From NCBI GenBank assembly GCA_021806165.1, contig JAJZXY010000014.1, forward strand, positions 1 to 54,746: 54,746 nucleotides of DNA, read 5' to 3'. Position numbers and translations under genes: made by a program. This stretch comes from Thermoplasmata archaeon (GTDB lineage: Archaea; Thermoplasmatota; Thermoplasmata; Sysuiplasmatales; Sysuiplasmataceae). Position 1 is the first letter of the stretch; each line of letters begins with the position of its first letter. Under the pieces are notes generated by a model, which worked only from the letters and a program-made list of their open reading frames with translations, searched no databases and was not told where the DNA came from. Positions 38,541 through 52,193 of this stretch are shown here, in pieces.

Positions 38541-38544
<4 letters not shown>

Positions 38545-41500
38545 CTCAAATCCTCCAGCTGAAGACGCATAACCACTCCAAGCGACATCAGTTCGTACAG
38601 AAGCAGCAGGAATGCATAGCTTGTCTGCACTAGGTGTATGTTGGTGGTGTTGTCGCAGGCCGGGCACCTGACAACACCCCTCCTGTCCACATACGCAATA
38701 TGGCCGCAGTCCGGGTTGCCGCAGACATACTGGTAGGTGCCGTCCGATTCGTCGAGCAGCCTGTCCTTGATTACCATGGCAGCACCGTGCGCTATGAGCG
38801 TATCCCTCTCCATTTCACCGAACCTGAGACCGCCCTGCCTTGACCTCCCCTCGGTAGGCTGCCTGGTGAGTATCTGTATGGGCCCCCTGCTCCTGACATG
38901 CAGCTTGCCCGAAACCATGTGGTGGAGCTTCTGGTAGTATATGACGCCGACGAATATCTCCGTCTGGATAATCCTTCCAGTGATGCCGTCATACATCACC
39001 TCCTTCCCGTTGTTCCTGAAGCCCATGGCCTCAAGCTCTCGCCTCAGCGCTTCCTCCTTCTCACCCGCAAATGCGGTGCCGTCCACAAACCTGCCCGAGA
39101 GCGAACCAACCTTCCCTCCAATCATCTCCAGCACGTGCGCAACAGTCATCCTTGAAGGTATTCCGTGCGGATTGATGATGAGGTCCGGCACAAGGCCGTC
39201 ACAAGTGAATGGCATGGATTCCTGGGGTGCAATGAGGCCGACAACCCCCTTCTGTCCGTGCCTTGATGCGAACTTGTCGCCAAGCTCGGGAATGCGTTCA
39301 TCCCTTACCTTGACCCTGACAAGCCTTGAGCCGTTTTCAGATTCTGTGAGTATGACGCTGTCCACATATCCAGACTCTCCCGCCCTGACTGTTATGGAAG
39401 TTTCCCTCCTCTTCTGGGGCGTGAGGAAGTCTGTCTCCTCCTCAAGGAAACGCGGAGGCGAGGTCTTGCCTATGAGCACATCCCCGCCGTTGACCAGCGT
39501 TTCGGGGGAAATCAGGCCGTCCTCCCCGAGGTTGCTGTAGGCAACATCCGCCCTCGCGCCGCGGACATCGGGGCTCGGTATCTCGAAATGGTCCTCCTGA
39601 CCTCCGGGGTACCTGCGCTCTTCCGTCCTGTAGCTCCTGAGAAATGAAGATCTTCCGAGTCCCCTTTCTATGGACCCCTTGTTCATTACTATCGCATCTT
39701 CCATGTTGTACCCGTAATGGGATACAATGGCGACGACGAAATTCTGCCCTGCAGGCCTTTCGTTGAAATTCGTGAATTTCATCTGGGTTGTCTGGACCAG
39801 GGGCTTCTGCGGGTAGTGCAACAGATGGCTCCTCGTGTCTGGCCTCAGCCTGTAGTTCGAGGCGCCGAGACCGAGCGACTGCTTGGCCATCCCTGCTCCC
39901 ATGGTGACCCTTGGAGAAGCATTGTGCTCTGGGTACGGGACAAGGCCCGCGCAGACACCCAGCACGATCATGGGGTCAATTTCGACATGCGTATGGTCAC
40001 GGGTTGTCGCAAGGCTGGCAGAGAAGGTGGCATGGCAGGATGGGCACTCAAGAAGTGCTTCCTGCTCCCCGCTCCCCATGTTCGTCCACCTTACCTCACC
40101 GGGTGAAAGCACGGCGGAGCAGGACGGGCAGGAGTGCGGCAGTATGTAAGGCTCAACTGCTATGAAACTGTCCTCCTCCTCTTCGGCATCAATCCATTCA
40201 ACGATACCCCCCCTGATGAGCTCGCTCCAGCTCCTCTTTCCCTCGTTCACCTCTTCCACCATCCTGGTGGTAAGGGCGGTGGTGCCGTTCTTGAGGACCA
40301 GCACGGCCCTCCTCAGCCTTCCCTCGTCACAGTTGAGGTAGACGTCGTTGGTTGCCCTGTCGAAGTGTACATTGACTTCGTGGGAGCGCTGCCCGTATAT
40401 CTTTCCTGTCCTCCTCCTTTCCCGTATCTCGGAGGCGAGCTTCTCCCCTTCCTTGGTCACGCCTACCAGGTCGCCGTTCACGTACACCCTGGTCTGCTGC
40501 TGCATCTCGGAGGGCTTTACGTCCCTGACACCGAGATCCCTCAGCTGCGCGAGCAGCTCGGATTCAGGTATTCCCTCTGAAACATCGACTATCAGAGCCG
40601 CGTTCTTGACAAGACCGCAGTTCTGCCCTTCGGGAGTCTCGTTTGGGCAGAGCCTTCCCCATTGCGTCGGATGCAAATCCCTGGCCTCGAAGTGCGGCTG
40701 GGACCTCGTGAGAGGGCTTGTGATGCGCCTCAGGTGGCTGACGGTGCTCATGTTGGATGTCCTGTCAAGCAGCTGGCTCACGCCTGCCCTTCCACCTACC
40801 CAGTTGCCTGTGGCCAGGGCATGGAGCAGCCTGTGTGTCAGCAGGTCGGGCCTGATGGCGCTCTGTATCTTGATATCCTTCTTCCTGGCAACGCTTCTTT
40901 CGAGCTGGTATTTCAAATCCTTGATGAGGTTGGTGAATGCGACGCGGAAGAGATCCTCCATGAGGTCGCCTGCAAGCTTCAGCCTCTTGTTTGAATAATG
41001 GTCCTTGTCATCCTCCCTCTTCATTCCAAGGGAGAGTTCAAGCACGTTCCTTGCGACCCTGCCCAGGAAGACAGCCTTCTTCAGCCTGTCCTCGGACGAG
41101 TCGCCAAGATGGGGCAGAAGTGATCTGTCTATTATGGATTCAATCTTCTTCACCCTGAACTCCTTCGCCTGGCCGGTTGCAAACTTCTTTTCAAGATAGT
41201 TCAGGGCGTCCTCCTTGGTGAATATGCCGTTCGGCGGGTAGTTCTTCTTGTCCTGGCAGTCCTCTATGTTGGCATATATTATGTTCTCCATCCTCGGATC
41301 GCCGGATATGGCCTCGAATATGTCATTGTCAGCCTCCATGCCCAGCGCCTTCATCAGGACTATGAGTGGAATCTGTCCGGAGGCAGCCGGGACGGTTACC
41401 ATGAGAATGCCGTCCTTCTTCTTCTCCACGACGGTGAGCGCGCGGTATCCTTCCCTCTGCGAAAAGACCTTTCCCACCTGAATCTTTGTGCCGTATCGCT

Positions 41501-42158
41501 CGTTGTATTCAACAAGCACCCTGTTGGGCGCAAGGTCCTCAAGCGTGATCAGCACCCTTTCGGTACCGCCTATGATGAAATATCCACCGGGGTCGAGCGG
41601 GTCCTCCCCCTCTGTCTGGAGCCTGGCAGTGTACTCCTGCGCCGTTAGCTCCCTGTCACTTGCCTCATCCACAATGTTCTCCTTGGTCAGGTTGCATGCC
41701 CTGCTCTTGACCATGATGGGCAGGTCGCCGATGTGGACAGGTTCAGCCTCCCTCTCGATGCCGTCCTCGATTACAGTGAAATACAGCCTGATGGGCGCCA
41801 TGTAGTTGAGATTCCTGAGCCTGGCCTCCATCGGCAGCAGCGTATGGCTTGCGCCATTTGCCTCCTTCACCACCGGCCTTCCAACCTCTATGGTCGGCCT
41901 GGCGAGGGGATCAACCAGCCCGGTCTTCTCATCCCTCTTCCTTCCCATCCTGATCTCAATGACCTTGCCGTCGGTCTTCTCCGGGTCCAGCCTGATAACA
42001 CCTCTGTCGATGTCCTCGGGACTGATCCGTGCATTGTCCACAATGCGCTGCATCCTGCTGTTTGCATTGTTGAACGAACTCAGGAAGTCGTTGAATGAGG
42101 CAATGTGGTGGTTGACAATACTCCTTTCCTTGAAATAAGATACAACTAGTTCTTTCAG
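38541..42158 (-). CDS. rpoB: DNA-directed RNA polymerase subunit B (unsplit), probable CTG start
   Basis: Second largest subunit, about 1205 residues, not divided into B' and B''. Conserved parts: [35 protein letters not shown] near 505, [20 protein letters not shown], the catalytic-face segment [13 protein letters not shown] near 985, and a C-terminal zinc ribbon. The family N-terminus ([19 protein letters not shown]) continues upstream of the first ATG at 42053. The frame back to an in-frame TAA offers no ATG, GTG or TTG, only CTG at 42158, four bases after GGTGAT. Residues near 680-720 hold an extra CPSC...CPSC zinc-ribbon-like insert. Confidence 0.96.
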
Positions 42159-42162
42159 TTAA

Positions 42163-42168
42163 ATCACC
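42163..42168 (-). promoter_or_regulatory. Ribosome-binding site GGTGAT deciding the rpoB CTG start
   Basis: Minus-strand GGTGAT, complementary to the 16S tail, then TTAA, then CTG. The TAA is in frame with rpoB, so no upstream start can serve. Confidence 0.7.
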
Positions 42169-42195
42169 ATCCAGGGAACGTGTCTGGACATCGGT

Positions 42196-45735: not shown

Positions 45736-46410
45736 TCACCGGGAAAACCGCACGGTCCCGTACCGTCCGATGTATGGCAGGACTGCTGCATCATCAAGCT
45801 GCCCGGGAGTAAGGTCGGTCATCCGCATTATCTGCGCTTCCAGCTCAAGGGCCATGCGTTCATCTTCGGCACCGAACCGGCCAGGCTGCCTGCCCCTGTA
45901 CCTCCGCCTAAGATCCATGAAACGCTCACCTATGCGCACAACTCCGCCCGGGGAGACCCTCTGGTCGGAGTAGGCCAACACCTTCAGCGCAACATCCCCC
46001 GACGAGAGTATCTGCGGCATCTTCTCCAGCAGCATATTTTCGACAAGGAATCCGACCTTCGCCGGAGCCCCGATATCCCTTACCATCGCATTGGTGACCA
46101 CATGGTCGTCGGATGAGGAGTAGGCCGCCGCCACATCATCCCTCACCGACCTCCAGCCGAGAATCTCCTCCCTGCTGAATCCCTCCCAAAGATCCCCTCC
46201 ACTGAAGTTGAATTTAACAATGTTGCCCAGATCATGCAGCAGAAGGGCTGCCACAACATCATCTGCAGACGGGCGCCCGCTGCCTCTCCACGCATCCACA
46301 ATCAGTTCACCCACGGCGGCAGTCCTTTTCATGTGGAGCCTGAGCCCGCCGATAACGCGAAACCGGTCGTATATGCTCTCTATCTGAAGCGCAATTTCAC
46401 TGCTGTCCAG
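45736..46410 (-). CDS. HD-domain protein, possible CTG start
   Basis: HD-superfamily metal-dependent phosphohydrolase-like protein. From the first ATG (46332) it has 198 residues with the HD pair in VVAALLLHDLGNIVKF near residue 32. The first HD histidine and its helix appear to lie upstream (IYDRFRVIGGLRLH, then MKRTAAVGELIV), so the gene probably starts earlier. No ATG, GTG or TTG is available there; CTG at 46410 follows GGAGG by nine bases and would add 26 residues. Substrate (nucleotide or phosphoester) unknown. Second gene after the 144-aa protein on the minus strand. Confidence 0.7.
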   Translation of the reverse strand: MDSSEIALQIESIYDRFRVIGGLRLHMKRTAAVGELIVDAWRGSGRPSADDVVAALLLHDLGNIVKFNFSGGDLWEGFSREEILGWRSVRDDVAAAYSSSDDHVVTNAMVRDIGAPAKVGFLVENMLLEKMPQILSSGDVALKVLAYSDQRVSPGGVVRIGERFMDLRRRYRGRQPGRFGAEDERMALELEAQIMRMTDLTPGQLDDAAVLPYIGRYGTVRFSR

Positions 46411-47554: not shown

Positions 47555-48505
47555 TCAGCTTCCTGGACTGACCTGGTTGATCGCCTTCCCGTCCCTGAAG
47601 TAGCTTGTCACCACCTCGACGACCTCCGCGCCAACCCTTCCCTGGGCCTCCCTTGTCTGGGCGCCAATGTGCGGCGTCATCACCACTCCGGGCTGTGCTG
47701 CAAGCGCGGGGTTGACTGCAGGCTCTCCCTCGAATACGTCACATCCTGCGCCTGCAAGCCTTCCATCACGCAGCGCGGCAGCAAGTGCATTGCCGTCGAC
47801 CATCTCCCCCCTGGCGGTGTTGATGAGGAGTGAACCCTTCTTCATCATGCCGAACTCCTTCTCTCCTATGAGGTGGCGGTTGCCAGGCATCATTGATGCG
47901 TGAAGGCTGACAATGTCGGAGCTGCCAAGCAGTTCGGGAAAATCCACCATCTTCACGCCTGCCTCTTCGGCCACGGCCCTGTCAATGTACGGGTCTGCAG
48001 CTATGACCTCCATCCTGAATGCCTTTGCCCGCCTGGCCACTTCGCGGCCCACGCGGCCAAGCCCTATTATGCCGAGTGTCCTGCCGTTGAGCTCGGAGCC
48101 TGTGAATTTGAGCGTCTCCCACCTGCCCGCGTGCATAGACTCGTTTGCCCTGCAGATGTTTCTTGTCAGCGCAAGCATCATGGCGAAGGCAAGTTCGGCA
48201 GCCGAAACCACATTCGCCCACGGCGTGTTGCAGACCGCAATCCCCATCTCCGATGCAGCTGCGACGTCGATATTGTCTATTCCGACCCCCGCCCTCACTA
48301 TGAGCTTCGCCGACTTGGCCTTCGATATGACATCCGACGTCAGCTTGGTCCTGCTTCTGACAATGATGCATTCGTAGCCGCCTATCACGCCCTTCAGTTC
48401 CTCTCCTGTTATGCCGTTCCTGAAGTCAACGTCAAATCCGTCTACCTTCCTCAGCTCTCCCACATAGCGCTCATCCACCGCATCCGTGATCAGTATCTTT
48501 GTCAA
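47555..48505 (-). CDS. serA: D-3-phosphoglycerate dehydrogenase
   Basis: 316 residues, NAD-dependent, first step of serine synthesis. Substrate-site VRAGVGIDNIDVAAA near 73, Rossmann loop LGIIGLGRVGREVARRA near 145-161, KKGSLLINTARGEMVD near 228 (catalytic Arg), and TPHIGAQTREAQ near 285 (catalytic His). It lacks the C-terminal ACT regulatory domains of longer SerA enzymes, so serine feedback through those is absent. TTG start directly follows the aminotransferase stop, forming a two-gene serine unit. Confidence 0.92.
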   Translation of the reverse strand: MTKILITDAVDERYVGELRKVDGFDVDFRNGITGEELKGVIGGYECIIVRSRTKLTSDVISKAKSAKLIVRAGVGIDNIDVAAASEMGIAVCNTPWANVVSAAELAFAMMLALTRNICRANESMHAGRWETLKFTGSELNGRTLGIIGLGRVGREVARRAKAFRMEVIAADPYIDRAVAEEAGVKMVDFPELLGSSDIVSLHASMMPGNRHLIGEKEFGMMKKGSLLINTARGEMVDGNALAAALRDGRLAGAGCDVFEGEPAVNPALAAQPGVVMTPHIGAQTREAQGRVGAEVVEVVTSYFRDGKAINQVSPGS

Positions 48506-49558
48506 TCAGACAGCCTCCGTCATTGCCTCAAGGAGTCCCTTCATTTCATCGACAGTAAGGTCACCCATATGCCCTATCCTGAACGTGCTTCCCTTCATCT
48601 TGCCATAACCTTCCGAAATCTGGTAGCCTCTGGCTGCAAGGTGGCTGCTCAGCGCCTGGAAATCCATGTCAGCAGTATTCTTCACGCATGTCACCGTGCT
48701 GGAATAGCTGCCTTCTGGGAAGAGTGCCATGTGCTCCTTGGCCCATGCCCTTGCCATGCCTGCGAGCTCCCTGTGCCTTGCGGCCCTCCTCTCCATCCCC
48801 TCAGAGGCGATCCTGTCAAGCTGGAAGTCCAGTGCATACATGAGCGATATTGGTGGAGTGCTTGGCACGAGATTCCTGTCGGCAAATTTCTTCATCTCAA
48901 GCAGGTCCAGGTACCTTCCCCTGTTCTTCACGCTGCCCGCCTTTTCGAGCAGACGCTCGGAAACAACAGCAAATGCGAGGCCAGGCGGAAGCGCGAGCGC
49001 CTTCTGCGTCCCGAATAGTAGCAGGTCCGGCTTCACTCTGCCCATGTCTATCACATCTGCAAATGCAGAAGTGACGGCATCCACAAACAGCAGGGAGTCG
49101 GAGGACGAATGGACTGCCTCTGCAATCTCCTCCAGAGGATTCATGACTCCAGTTGACGTTTCACTGTGTGTTACAGCCACCGCGTCATATCCCCCAGACA
49201 GGTGCACGTCCAGCAGTTCCGCGCCCGCAGCCCTTCCCCATGGGACAGAGACTGAAGTGGCATCCTTTCCATTGTCCCTGGAGATTTCGGCCCATCTCTC
49301 GCTGAATGCGCCGCATGTCATGTGCAGTATCTTCCCGCCCACGGCAGATCTGACACCCGCCTCCATGACTCCAGTTGCCGAGGAAACTGAAAGAAGTATG
49401 TCATTTTCCGTCCCAAGGAGCTTCTTCATCTTCTCCACGATGGAGGCATGAAGCTTCTTGTATTCCCCTCCGCGGTGGGTGATCATGGGTTTCATCATCG
49501 CGCCAATGACCTCCCTCCTGACCTCTACGGGCCCGGCAGTGAAAAGCAGCCTGTCCAG
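48506..49558 (-). CDS. Class V aminotransferase (serine pathway), probable CTG start
   Basis: PLP enzyme of the alanine-glyoxylate/serine-pyruvate and phosphoserine group, about 350 residues. LLFTAGPVEVRREVIGAMMK at the N-terminus, ITHRGGEY, SATGVMEAGVRSA near 60, FVDAVTSAFADVID (PLP Asp) and LLFGTQKALALPP with the Schiff-base lysine. The first ATG (49498) would remove the conserved TAGP segment. Between it and an upstream in-frame TAA no ATG, GTG or TTG occurs; CTG at 49558 follows GGTGAT by three bases. Position before serA suggests it makes phosphoserine, as proposed for archaeal MJ0959-type enzymes. Confidence 0.88.
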   Translation of the reverse strand: MDRLLFTAGPVEVRREVIGAMMKPMITHRGGEYKKLHASIVEKMKKLLGTENDILLSVSSATGVMEAGVRSAVGGKILHMTCGAFSERWAEISRDNGKDATSVSVPWGRAAGAELLDVHLSGGYDAVAVTHSETSTGVMNPLEEIAEAVHSSSDSLLFVDAVTSAFADVIDMGRVKPDLLLFGTQKALALPPGLAFAVVSERLLEKAGSVKNRGRYLDLLEMKKFADRNLVPSTPPISLMYALDFQLDRIASEGMERRAARHRELAGMARAWAKEHMALFPEGSYSSTVTCVKNTADMDFQALSSHLAARGYQISEGYGKMKGSTFRIGHMGDLTVDEMKGLLEAMTEAV

Positions 49559-49561
49559 TGA

Positions 49562-49567
49562 ATCACC
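49562..49567 (-). promoter_or_regulatory. Ribosome-binding site GGTGAT for the aminotransferase CTG start
   Basis: Minus-strand GGTGAT, then TCA, then CTG at 49558. Same motif and spacing class as at rpoB. Confidence 0.6.
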
Positions 49568-49693
49568 GTTTGTGCGATAAGTGCTTGATAGTTATAGATT
49601 GCCATCAGCGACAGTAGTGCATCTCCGCAAACACAAAAGCGCGCAATTGCGGAGTTGTCGCGGACAGAAGTTACATGGCGGAGGACAAATTGC

Positions 49694-50576: not shown

Positions 50577-52193
50577 TCACATCCCCAGCGTCTCTATTAC
50601 TTCCTGATACAGTTTCACTGCGCCCTGCTTCACTTCCGGGGTGACAGTATCGCATGCAGAGGCGTACATGTTCAGCCCGAAATCGTCACTGAAGACGTTC
50701 CCGCTCAGCTTCAGAGTCGAGAAAATCACCTTGGAGGATATCTCAGCTATCACTGCCTCCTGATTCAGCGTCTGCTCCGTCCTCTTCCTGACTGCATCAA
50801 GCGTCATGCCGGTGAGCGCCTCGGACATCTCCCTGTTGAGGTTTGCGAAGAGGGAGCCTGTGCCGTCATCCACGACAAGCCTCACCCTGAAGTCCGCCAC
50901 CCCTTCCACCTGGCCATGTGTCCTGCACTCGCCCAGCTTCGTGGTGCGGCTGCACTGCGGGCATCTGAAGATGAGCCCGGTGCCCTGCCTCACCTCGATT
51001 ATCGTCGCCGTGACGGCGGCATCCATCGCACCCCCTCTCTCCTCAAGCGCCTCTATCGAGTAGGCCGTTGATCCGCCAGCCGTGACGAGCAGCTCCTTTT
51101 CCTCCCTGGCCACCTCCGACTTGTCATCGAACTTCAGCTGCGGAACACCCTTCCATGAGCGGACATAGGCACCGCTGATCCTGACGGTCTCGCCCTCGTT
51201 GAACGGAAAATCGCGCCAGCCTGTGAAGCTGACCTTCCCGGTGGCGTCGGCGAGCACTCCCGACACCATGCTCCTGGTCTCCCCCTGCACCTCAATCTCC
51301 TTCTCTGAGATGCTCATAACCCTGCCGGTAACTGTGATGTTGCCCATGCCCTCCCTGAGATCTGCTATGCTGGCGGCCCTGGGCGTCCCGAACCTGGCAA
51401 CGCTGCCAATCTCCCTGTCGGCAAGCTTTTCAACAGTGGAGCGCTCGCTCAGGTTTACCTGAATCTCGCCATTCCTCTCGCGGGAGTATGCCCCCTCTAC
51501 CCTCACCACATCGCCCTTGGATATGCCGAAATCCTTCCAGGCGGTAAAACGCACAGTCCTGCTCTCATCGCCTACGAGCCCGTACTGTATCTCCTTCTCC
51601 TCCCCCCTGCTGTTGACCACCCTGGAGGCAATGGAAATAATCTTCCCCTCGAACAGAATGTTTGACTCATTGGGCTGAATGTCCTTGATCTTCCTTGCCT
51701 CCCTCTTCCACTCGGCAGCTTTCTCCTTCACCCAGTACCTTGACTTTGATGAAACGTTCAGCTGAGGCTTCTCCCTGTACGTGGTGGTGTAGGCATTCCT
51801 GAATGCTATGAGGTCGCCGCGTTCGACGTCACTGGAAGCATATTCCCATATGGTGAAAGGCAGGCTGCCTGTGCTGTCCTCTATCAGACCGGAGAGTATC
51901 CTTTTCTTCTCGCCCGATACAGTCACCTCCCTGGGCGTCGCATATACAACCCTGCCGCTCACATCGACTGAACCCTCGCCTGCAACTATGTCAGCAATGC
52001 TCTTCTCCACACCAAGCGAAAGCGCGTCCGGGTCCCCTCCATACTTCTTGACAATGCTCCTCTTGGCGGAAGGGACAGACACCCTGTATTCACCTACAAA
52101 CAGGTTAAGCTCCTTCTCAAGAGCGCTCCTTTCTACCCTGCCGCCAAGCACAGAAAACATGTCTTCCACGTGTTTTTGCAAATCCGATTCCAA
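50577..52193 (-). CDS. rpa: Replication protein A (single-strand DNA-binding)
   Basis: About 538 residues. Three successive OB folds share the pattern VSGRVVYATPREV..GLIEDSTGSLPFTIWEY (first), the FEGKIISIASRVV and VTGRVMSISEKEI repeats (second and third), then a fourth OB fold with a zinc finger CPQCSRTTKLGECRTHG (C-x2-C-x8-C-x2-H) near 425. It coats single-stranded DNA in replication and repair. TTG at 52193 lies three bases after GGTGAT, and the TATA box at 52228-52237 excludes an upstream ATG at 52265. First gene of the RPA pair. Confidence 0.93.
   Translation of the reverse strand: MESDLQKHVEDMFSVLGGRVERSALEKELNLFVGEYRVSVPSAKRSIVKKYGGDPDALSLGVEKSIADIVAGEGSVDVSGRVVYATPREVTVSGEKKRILSGLIEDSTGSLPFTIWEYASSDVERGDLIAFRNAYTTTYREKPQLNVSSKSRYWVKEKAAEWKREARKIKDIQPNESNILFEGKIISIASRVVNSRGEEKEIQYGLVGDESRTVRFTAWKDFGISKGDVVRVEGAYSRERNGEIQVNLSERSTVEKLADREIGSVARFGTPRAASIADLREGMGNITVTGRVMSISEKEIEVQGETRSMVSGVLADATGKVSFTGWRDFPFNEGETVRISGAYVRSWKGVPQLKFDDKSEVAREEKELLVTAGGSTAYSIEALEERGGAMDAAVTATIIEVRQGTGLIFRCPQCSRTTKLGECRTHGQVEGVADFRVRLVVDDGTGSLFANLNREMSEALTGMTLDAVRKRTEQTLNQEAVIAEISSKVIFSTLKLSGNVFSDDFGLNMYASACDTVTPEVKQGAVKLYQEVIETLGM

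Follow-up and report, generated by a model that had tools for sequence, protein, structure and literature searches.

Our comparison of orthologous 5' ends makes it very likely that an archaeal gene for a class V aminotransferase starts at a CTG codon (position 49558, minus strand), and that the same kind of initiation, with Met-tRNAi positioned on CTG or ACG by a Shine-Dalgarno (SD) sequence, is used at rpoB and at about 2% of the genes of the family. The window, by which we mean the whole stretch of 54,746 nucleotides that was analysed, is contig 25 of an archaeal draft genome of 1.88 Mb (G000), and it was compared with congeners (G001-G003) and with genomes of a sister genus (G004-G007), all of the sequences from this family being drafts. 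Profile searches identified in the window rpoB, subunits A' and A'', RPA and formate-phosphoribosylaminoimidazolecarboxamide ligase. The nearest named match, and the only relative found in the scan of named genomes, is a Methanomassiliicoccales MAG with 53% identity, which has a GTG near the start column.

A probable CTG start of the aminotransferase gene

The aminotransferase coding sequence (48506..49558, minus strand), placed by homology, comprises 350 amino acids when read from the CTG and scores 81.2 bits with PF00266, the class V (PLP) model, whose cut-off is 21.5; matches are present in 50 of 60 relatives. The first-pass annotation had described the product as a serine-pathway aminotransferase. 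The class assignment stands, but no specific NCBIfam model reaches its cut-off, neither the best one, BhcA (171.9 against 650), nor the phosphoserine transaminase model TIGR01366 (80.6 bits against 401.65), and the pathway name comes only from the adjoining 3-phosphoglycerate-dehydrogenase-like gene (47555-48505), upstream of which the aminotransferase sits.

Read on the minus strand from 49600 down, the region runs AAT CTA TAA CTA TCA AGC ACT TAT CGC ACA AAC GGT GAT TCA CTG GAC AGG CTG CTT TTC ... GCG ATG, the codons following the CTG being GAC AGG CTG CTT TTC ACT GCC GGG. From the in-frame TAA (49594-49592) to the ATG at 49498 this frame is devoid of ATG, GTG and TTG, and eleven codons separate the TAA from the CTG (49556..49558). 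A conserved GGTGAT (49562..49567, minus strand) lies three bases (TCA) 5' of the CTG and is complementary to the 16S tail of the same genome, GGATCACCTCC. The earlier reading of this site, namely a frame without a standard start and a CTG three bases after GGTGAT, was thus right in its coordinates, all of them on the minus strand, as was the parallel it drew with the start of RPA, where GGTGAT (52202-52197), TGC and TTG (52191..52193) follow one another on the minus strand. The last three bases of a TATAA box (49592..49596, minus strand), 38 bases 5' of the CTG, form the in-frame stop, and a TATAA is found 37-40 bases 5' of the start column in all seven genomes of the family. From the usual archaeal distance between TATA box and transcription start, the leader would measure roughly ten bases, just enough to accommodate GGTGAT.

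The start was also compared in an alignment of 29 homologues at the CTG column. In the congeners G001 and G003 the site, GGTGATTCA-CTG, is identical to the letter, and the third congener, G002, has CTG at the same column as GGTGATTTTG-CTG, with a TTG directly 5' of it. The sister genus (G004, G005, G006) has TTG here, and among other families TTG is found in L015-L018 and ATG in L020, L021, L023, L024, L027 and L028, in the form GGTGATATC-ATG in L023, L024 and L027. Compared with G001, codons +1 to +19 include 5 identical, 9 synonymous and 5 non-synonymous ones, and the 12 codons 5' of the SD are all non-synonymous (0/0/12). By this substitution pattern the 19 codons after the CTG evolve as coding sequence under purifying selection, unlike those 5' of the SD.

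The first standard start, ATG (49496..49498, minus strand), lies 20 codons 3' of the CTG. It was rejected because the conserved LDRLLFTAGPVEVRREVIGA would be lost and because relatives carry a start codon at the CTG column or within a few codons of it; the first-pass annotation had regarded translation from 49498 as one of the outcomes that would undo its proposal, and the orthologues place the start at the CTG column instead.

The start of rpoB

In the case of rpoB (38541..42158, minus strand), coding for RNA polymerase subunit B, homology places the start at a CTG (42158-42156) that directly follows a TAA. GGTGAT (42163..42168, minus strand) lies four bases 5' of the CTG and is conserved, as GGTGATTTGATTG, in G001 and G003. 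The rpoB site had been described as having the same arrangement as that of the aminotransferase, and the succession of GGTGAT and CTG is indeed common to both; the spacing, however, is four bases (TTAA) rather than three, and the last three of these are the in-frame stop directly 5' of the CTG. Since the TAA directly precedes the CTG, a start further upstream is impossible, and in most of the family the frame is likewise closed directly upstream of the start column. At this column G000 has CTG, G001 and G003-G007 have TTG, and other families have mostly ATG, GTG or TTG. The 34 codons from the CTG to the first ATG (42053) comprise, against G001, 20 identical, 14 synonymous and no non-synonymous ones, so that a downstream start would throw away a segment that is, judging from these substitutions, strongly constrained. 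On the same evidence the CTG case of rpoB is stronger than that of the aminotransferase.

Translation of both genes from their first standard start (ATG 49498 in the aminotransferase, ATG 42053 in rpoB), with some other cause for the conservation upstream, would agree with the choice of a gene finder and with the list of open reading frames, which gives both genes that way, and a GGAGGT does lie upstream of ATG 49498, though inside codons conserved as protein. We regard this as very improbable, as the conservation upstream is of the protein type (in rpoB, exclusively synonymous changes), the TTG, ATG or GTG of relatives falls exactly at the CTG column, and the shortened proteins would be deprived of the conserved LLFTAGPVEV and of a conserved 21-residue stretch.

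A mini-ORF, ATG GTG ATT TAA (42159-42170, minus strand), overlaps the SD of rpoB, its last base directly adjoining the CTG start, and G001 and G003 have ATG GTG ATT TGA TTG at the same place. Termination-reinitiation could help starts of the rpoB type.

Other probable CTG and ACG starts in the family

The window probably contains a third gene that starts at CTG. The gene for an HD-like protein (45736..46410, minus strand), named from its translated sequence rather than from a profile match, most likely begins at CTG 46410-46408 after a GGAGG (46424-46420); the orthologue in G001, with 52% identity, has ATG at this column. The case is weaker than those of the aminotransferase and rpoB.

A survey with a simple coding model for gene calls covered 769 kb of G000 (41%), 721 kb of G001 and 400 kb each of G005 and G034. 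In G000, 14 of 681 genes lacked a standard start in the neighbourhood of the coding onset; the genes listed in this way for G005 and G034 were mostly misplaced onsets and were set aside. The orthologues of the genes without such a start, together with candidates marked by an SD, were read in five genomes of the family. In the 769 kb of G000 this gave about 14 firm and 17 likely non-standard starts, CTG and ACG, among 690 genes (~2%). Where gene names such as trpA, trpD, carB, cdc48, Csl4, FTR1 and UDG are not backed by a profile search, they are our presumptive readings of recognisable sequence motifs.

Among the CTG cases, the start column of trpD has CTG in G000 and G001, GTG in G003 and G006, and ATG in G004 and G005; that of trpA has CTG in G000, G001 and G005 and ATG in G004; and that of an FtsJ-like methyltransferase has CTG in G000 and TTG in G003 and G004. 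An FTR1-like permease has CTG in G000, G001, G003 and G005, with an in-frame standard codon upstream in G001 and G003. Two genes combine both codons: an ABC ATPase has CTG in G000, GTG in G001 and G003, ACG in G006 and ATG in G004, and the uracil-DNA glycosylase has CTG in G000, ATG in G001 and G003, and ACG after GGTGATTGA in G004. The ACG cases include carB (ACG in G000, ATG in G001 and G003), an exosome Csl4-like protein (ACG in G000, G001 and G003, ATG in the sister genus) and a DUF106/EMC3-like protein (ACG in G000, GTG in G001, ATG in G003, G004 and G006). For cdc48/VAT, ACG is the start in all six genomes compared, each keeping a GGAG 9-10 bases upstream, with an additional ATG two codons before the ACG in G005; a membrane protein (G000, C8:30890) also has ACG in six out of six. 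Less certain, with a weaker SD, are a CTG in an MFS transporter (C20:22070) and one in a substrate-binding protein (C14:20975), against ATG AAT AAG AAA in G005; further less certain candidates in G000 are an ACG at C8:9887 and the site at C30:56530. Some examples have in-frame standard alternatives in relatives (FTR1 in G001, trpA in G006), and the aminotransferase and rpoB have none upstream or close downstream in their own genome.

Orthologous start positions therefore exchange ATG, GTG, TTG, CTG and ACG, mostly after a good SD. The first-pass annotation had proposed that a strong GGTGAT site lets this organism use CTG: the use of CTG after an SD is borne out, but SDs of the GGAGG type serve as well, and ACG is also used, at columns occupied by ATG or GTG in relatives. 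Drafts such as those available for this family could in principle contain non-standard starts that stem from faulty sequencing or assembly, or from genes in decay; this explanation is scarcely credible, as the same codon recurs in independent genomes (the CTG of the aminotransferase in four species, the ACG of cdc48 in six) and the genes concerned, which are essential, are undamaged and have kept their SD. The starts might also be real and be decoded by Leu- or Thr-tRNA instead of Met-tRNAi, and in eukaryotes there are described cases of a CUG start read as Leu. That one orthologous column reads CTG, GTG, ACG or ATG according to the species is most simply explained by a single initiator tRNA, and decoding by Leu- or Thr-tRNA appears highly improbable to us.

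Two observations were made alongside. In G034, a distant class member represented by a single contig, phosphoglycerate kinase (L102, C1:91820, minus strand) appears to begin GGTGGTAGC-ACG; on the strength of this one genome, ACG starts may occur outside the family studied here. The 5' end of carB in the sister genus (L198 in G005, L202 in G006, L203 in G004) has a common +1 frameshift at GCC GAA TTT C GAC TTC (IGQAAEF/DFSGSQAC), with conserved protein in both frames and a downstream frame of 1029-1042 codons; the extra base is absent from genus g1, and the arrangement resembles a programmed +1 frameshift at UUU-C that has been conserved.

Statistical control

For 310 genes of G000 the start column was set by partner genomes and compared with columns 2-8 away, an SD of -7 kcal/mol or lower being counted as good. 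At start columns with a good SD we found ATG 46 times, TTG 22, GTG 12, CTG 7 and ACG 2, and at neighbouring columns with a good SD CTG had a mean of 1.2 (maximum 4) and ACG of 0.5 (maximum 2). The genome scan suggested in the first-pass annotation, run here over part of the genome, accordingly yields an excess of SD-spaced CTG at homology-defined starts, the absence of which would have counted against its proposal. AAG and AGG occur once each at the SD-preceded columns of these 310 genes, and ATA, ATT, ATC and GCG do not occur there at all, the expected numbers being small for ATA, ATT and ATC. The corresponding counts of SD-preceded CTG are 3 against 0.29 in G005 and 0 against 0.43 in G001. 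When no SD is required there is no clear enrichment (CTG 11 against a mean of 8.3, ACG 3 against 3.3). The automatic column count is noisy, with several known cases placed one or more codons off, and because of this noise and of the unclear excess of ACG, the case for ACG is based mainly on the orthologues checked by hand. A first census, of SD-preceded codons near computed coding onsets, was abandoned: it gave a weak excess of CTG only (13 against 8.3) because most CTGs there are internal Leu codons, and homology-defined columns were needed. The candidate non-standard starts have a stronger SD than ATG starts (median -8.8 against -5.4, p = 6e-5), a comparison that is partly circular, some candidates having been found via their SD, and in which 2 of 17 positions are off-register.

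These counts bear on C-to-U editing of the mRNA, which would turn CUG into UUG and ACG into AUG and leave initiation canonical. CTG and ACG are each one such step from a standard start, ATA, ATT and ATC, all beyond repair by editing, do not appear, and GCG stands at the start column of two sister-genus genes. Editing would, however, make GCG (giving GUG) common, as GTG and TTG starts have similar frequencies, and its count at SD-preceded start columns is zero; furthermore, in both sister-genus cases an alternative start lies no more than two codons from the GCG (in trpA a GTG upstream, in the methyltransferase an ACG downstream). C-to-U editing of mRNA is not known to us from any archaeon, and we hold this explanation to be improbable.

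Discussion

The reading that we favour is direct initiation at CTG and ACG by the ordinary initiator tRNA. A promoter at TATAA 49596 would give rise to a short leader carrying GGTGAT, whose pairing with the 16S tail would set the CTG in the P site, and Met-tRNAi(CAU) would start there despite a first-base mismatch (U36 against C), as it would on ACG despite a second-base mismatch (A35 against C), usually behind a good SD. The third-base G-C pair would be retained in both cases; the first residue would be Met, and the initiation complex would tolerate a mismatch at the first or second base when the third base is G.

A broader reading is that the start rule itself has changed in the family, perhaps in more of the class, through an altered factor, a tRNA modification, a ribosomal component or mRNA editing, so that mainly the third base is checked and ATG, GTG, TTG, CTG and ACG are freely exchanged at SD-marked starts of essential genes; we put this forward only tentatively. 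An altered aIF1 was rejected as the cause of a looser rule, the factor being present in one copy per genome with an ordinary sequence, and so was an altered initiator tRNA, which has the CAU anticodon and the normal G29-C41, G30-C40 and G31-C39 pairs of the anticodon stem. As both look ordinary, no changed part accounts for a looser rule, and the use of CTG and ACG may instead reflect a general tolerance assisted by strong SDs. The initiator tRNA gene (L087, G000:C15:3517-3608) is interrupted by a 14-base intron in its anticodon loop. The checkpoint involved is already known, since aIF1 of Sulfolobus helps to discriminate against non-canonical starts (PMC6237735). Bacterial complexes with CUG have a lower stability than those with AUG, GUG or UUG, though CUG can occupy the normal frame (PMC11497404).

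Bacterial and archaeal starts at GUG and UUG share with the present ones the dependence on an SD and the CAU initiator, and in this archaeal family they are interchanged with CTG and ACG among orthologues. Unlike them, CUG is very rare elsewhere: across 36 genome groups, switches to CUG were found in 2 of 61,358 ancestral AUG starts and 1 of 2,468 UUG starts, ACG being unmentioned (PMC5622118). The contrast with these rates is suggestive, as the existing annotation on which they rest may miss starts of this kind. Our literature search, to which most subscription papers were out of reach, returned no archaeal gene reported to start naturally with CTG or ACG. In plastids, ACG start codons are restored to AUG by RNA editing. 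The genomic ACG at a start position is common to both systems; in this family, known from DNA alone, CTG is also used and GCG is not. The eukaryotic use of CUG and ACG as near-cognate starts resembles the present case in the codons, in the factor class (e/aIF1, e/aIF1A, e/aIF2) and in the single mismatch to the initiator anticodon, and differs from it in that here the SD positions the codon and CTG or ACG is the only start of essential genes, not an extra upstream one.

Textbook and software rules for archaea admit ATG, GTG and TTG only. Should genes such as rpoB, cdc48, carB and that of an exosome subunit have no start other than CTG or ACG, annotations in this lineage would be systematically truncated and the first amino acids of their proteins wrong, and start-codon discrimination by aIF1, aIF2 and tRNAi would be looser than assumed. 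The family would then offer natural sequences for asking how an SD offsets a P-site mismatch, as well as a prokaryotic counterpart of the CUG and ACG usage of eukaryotic near-cognate initiation.
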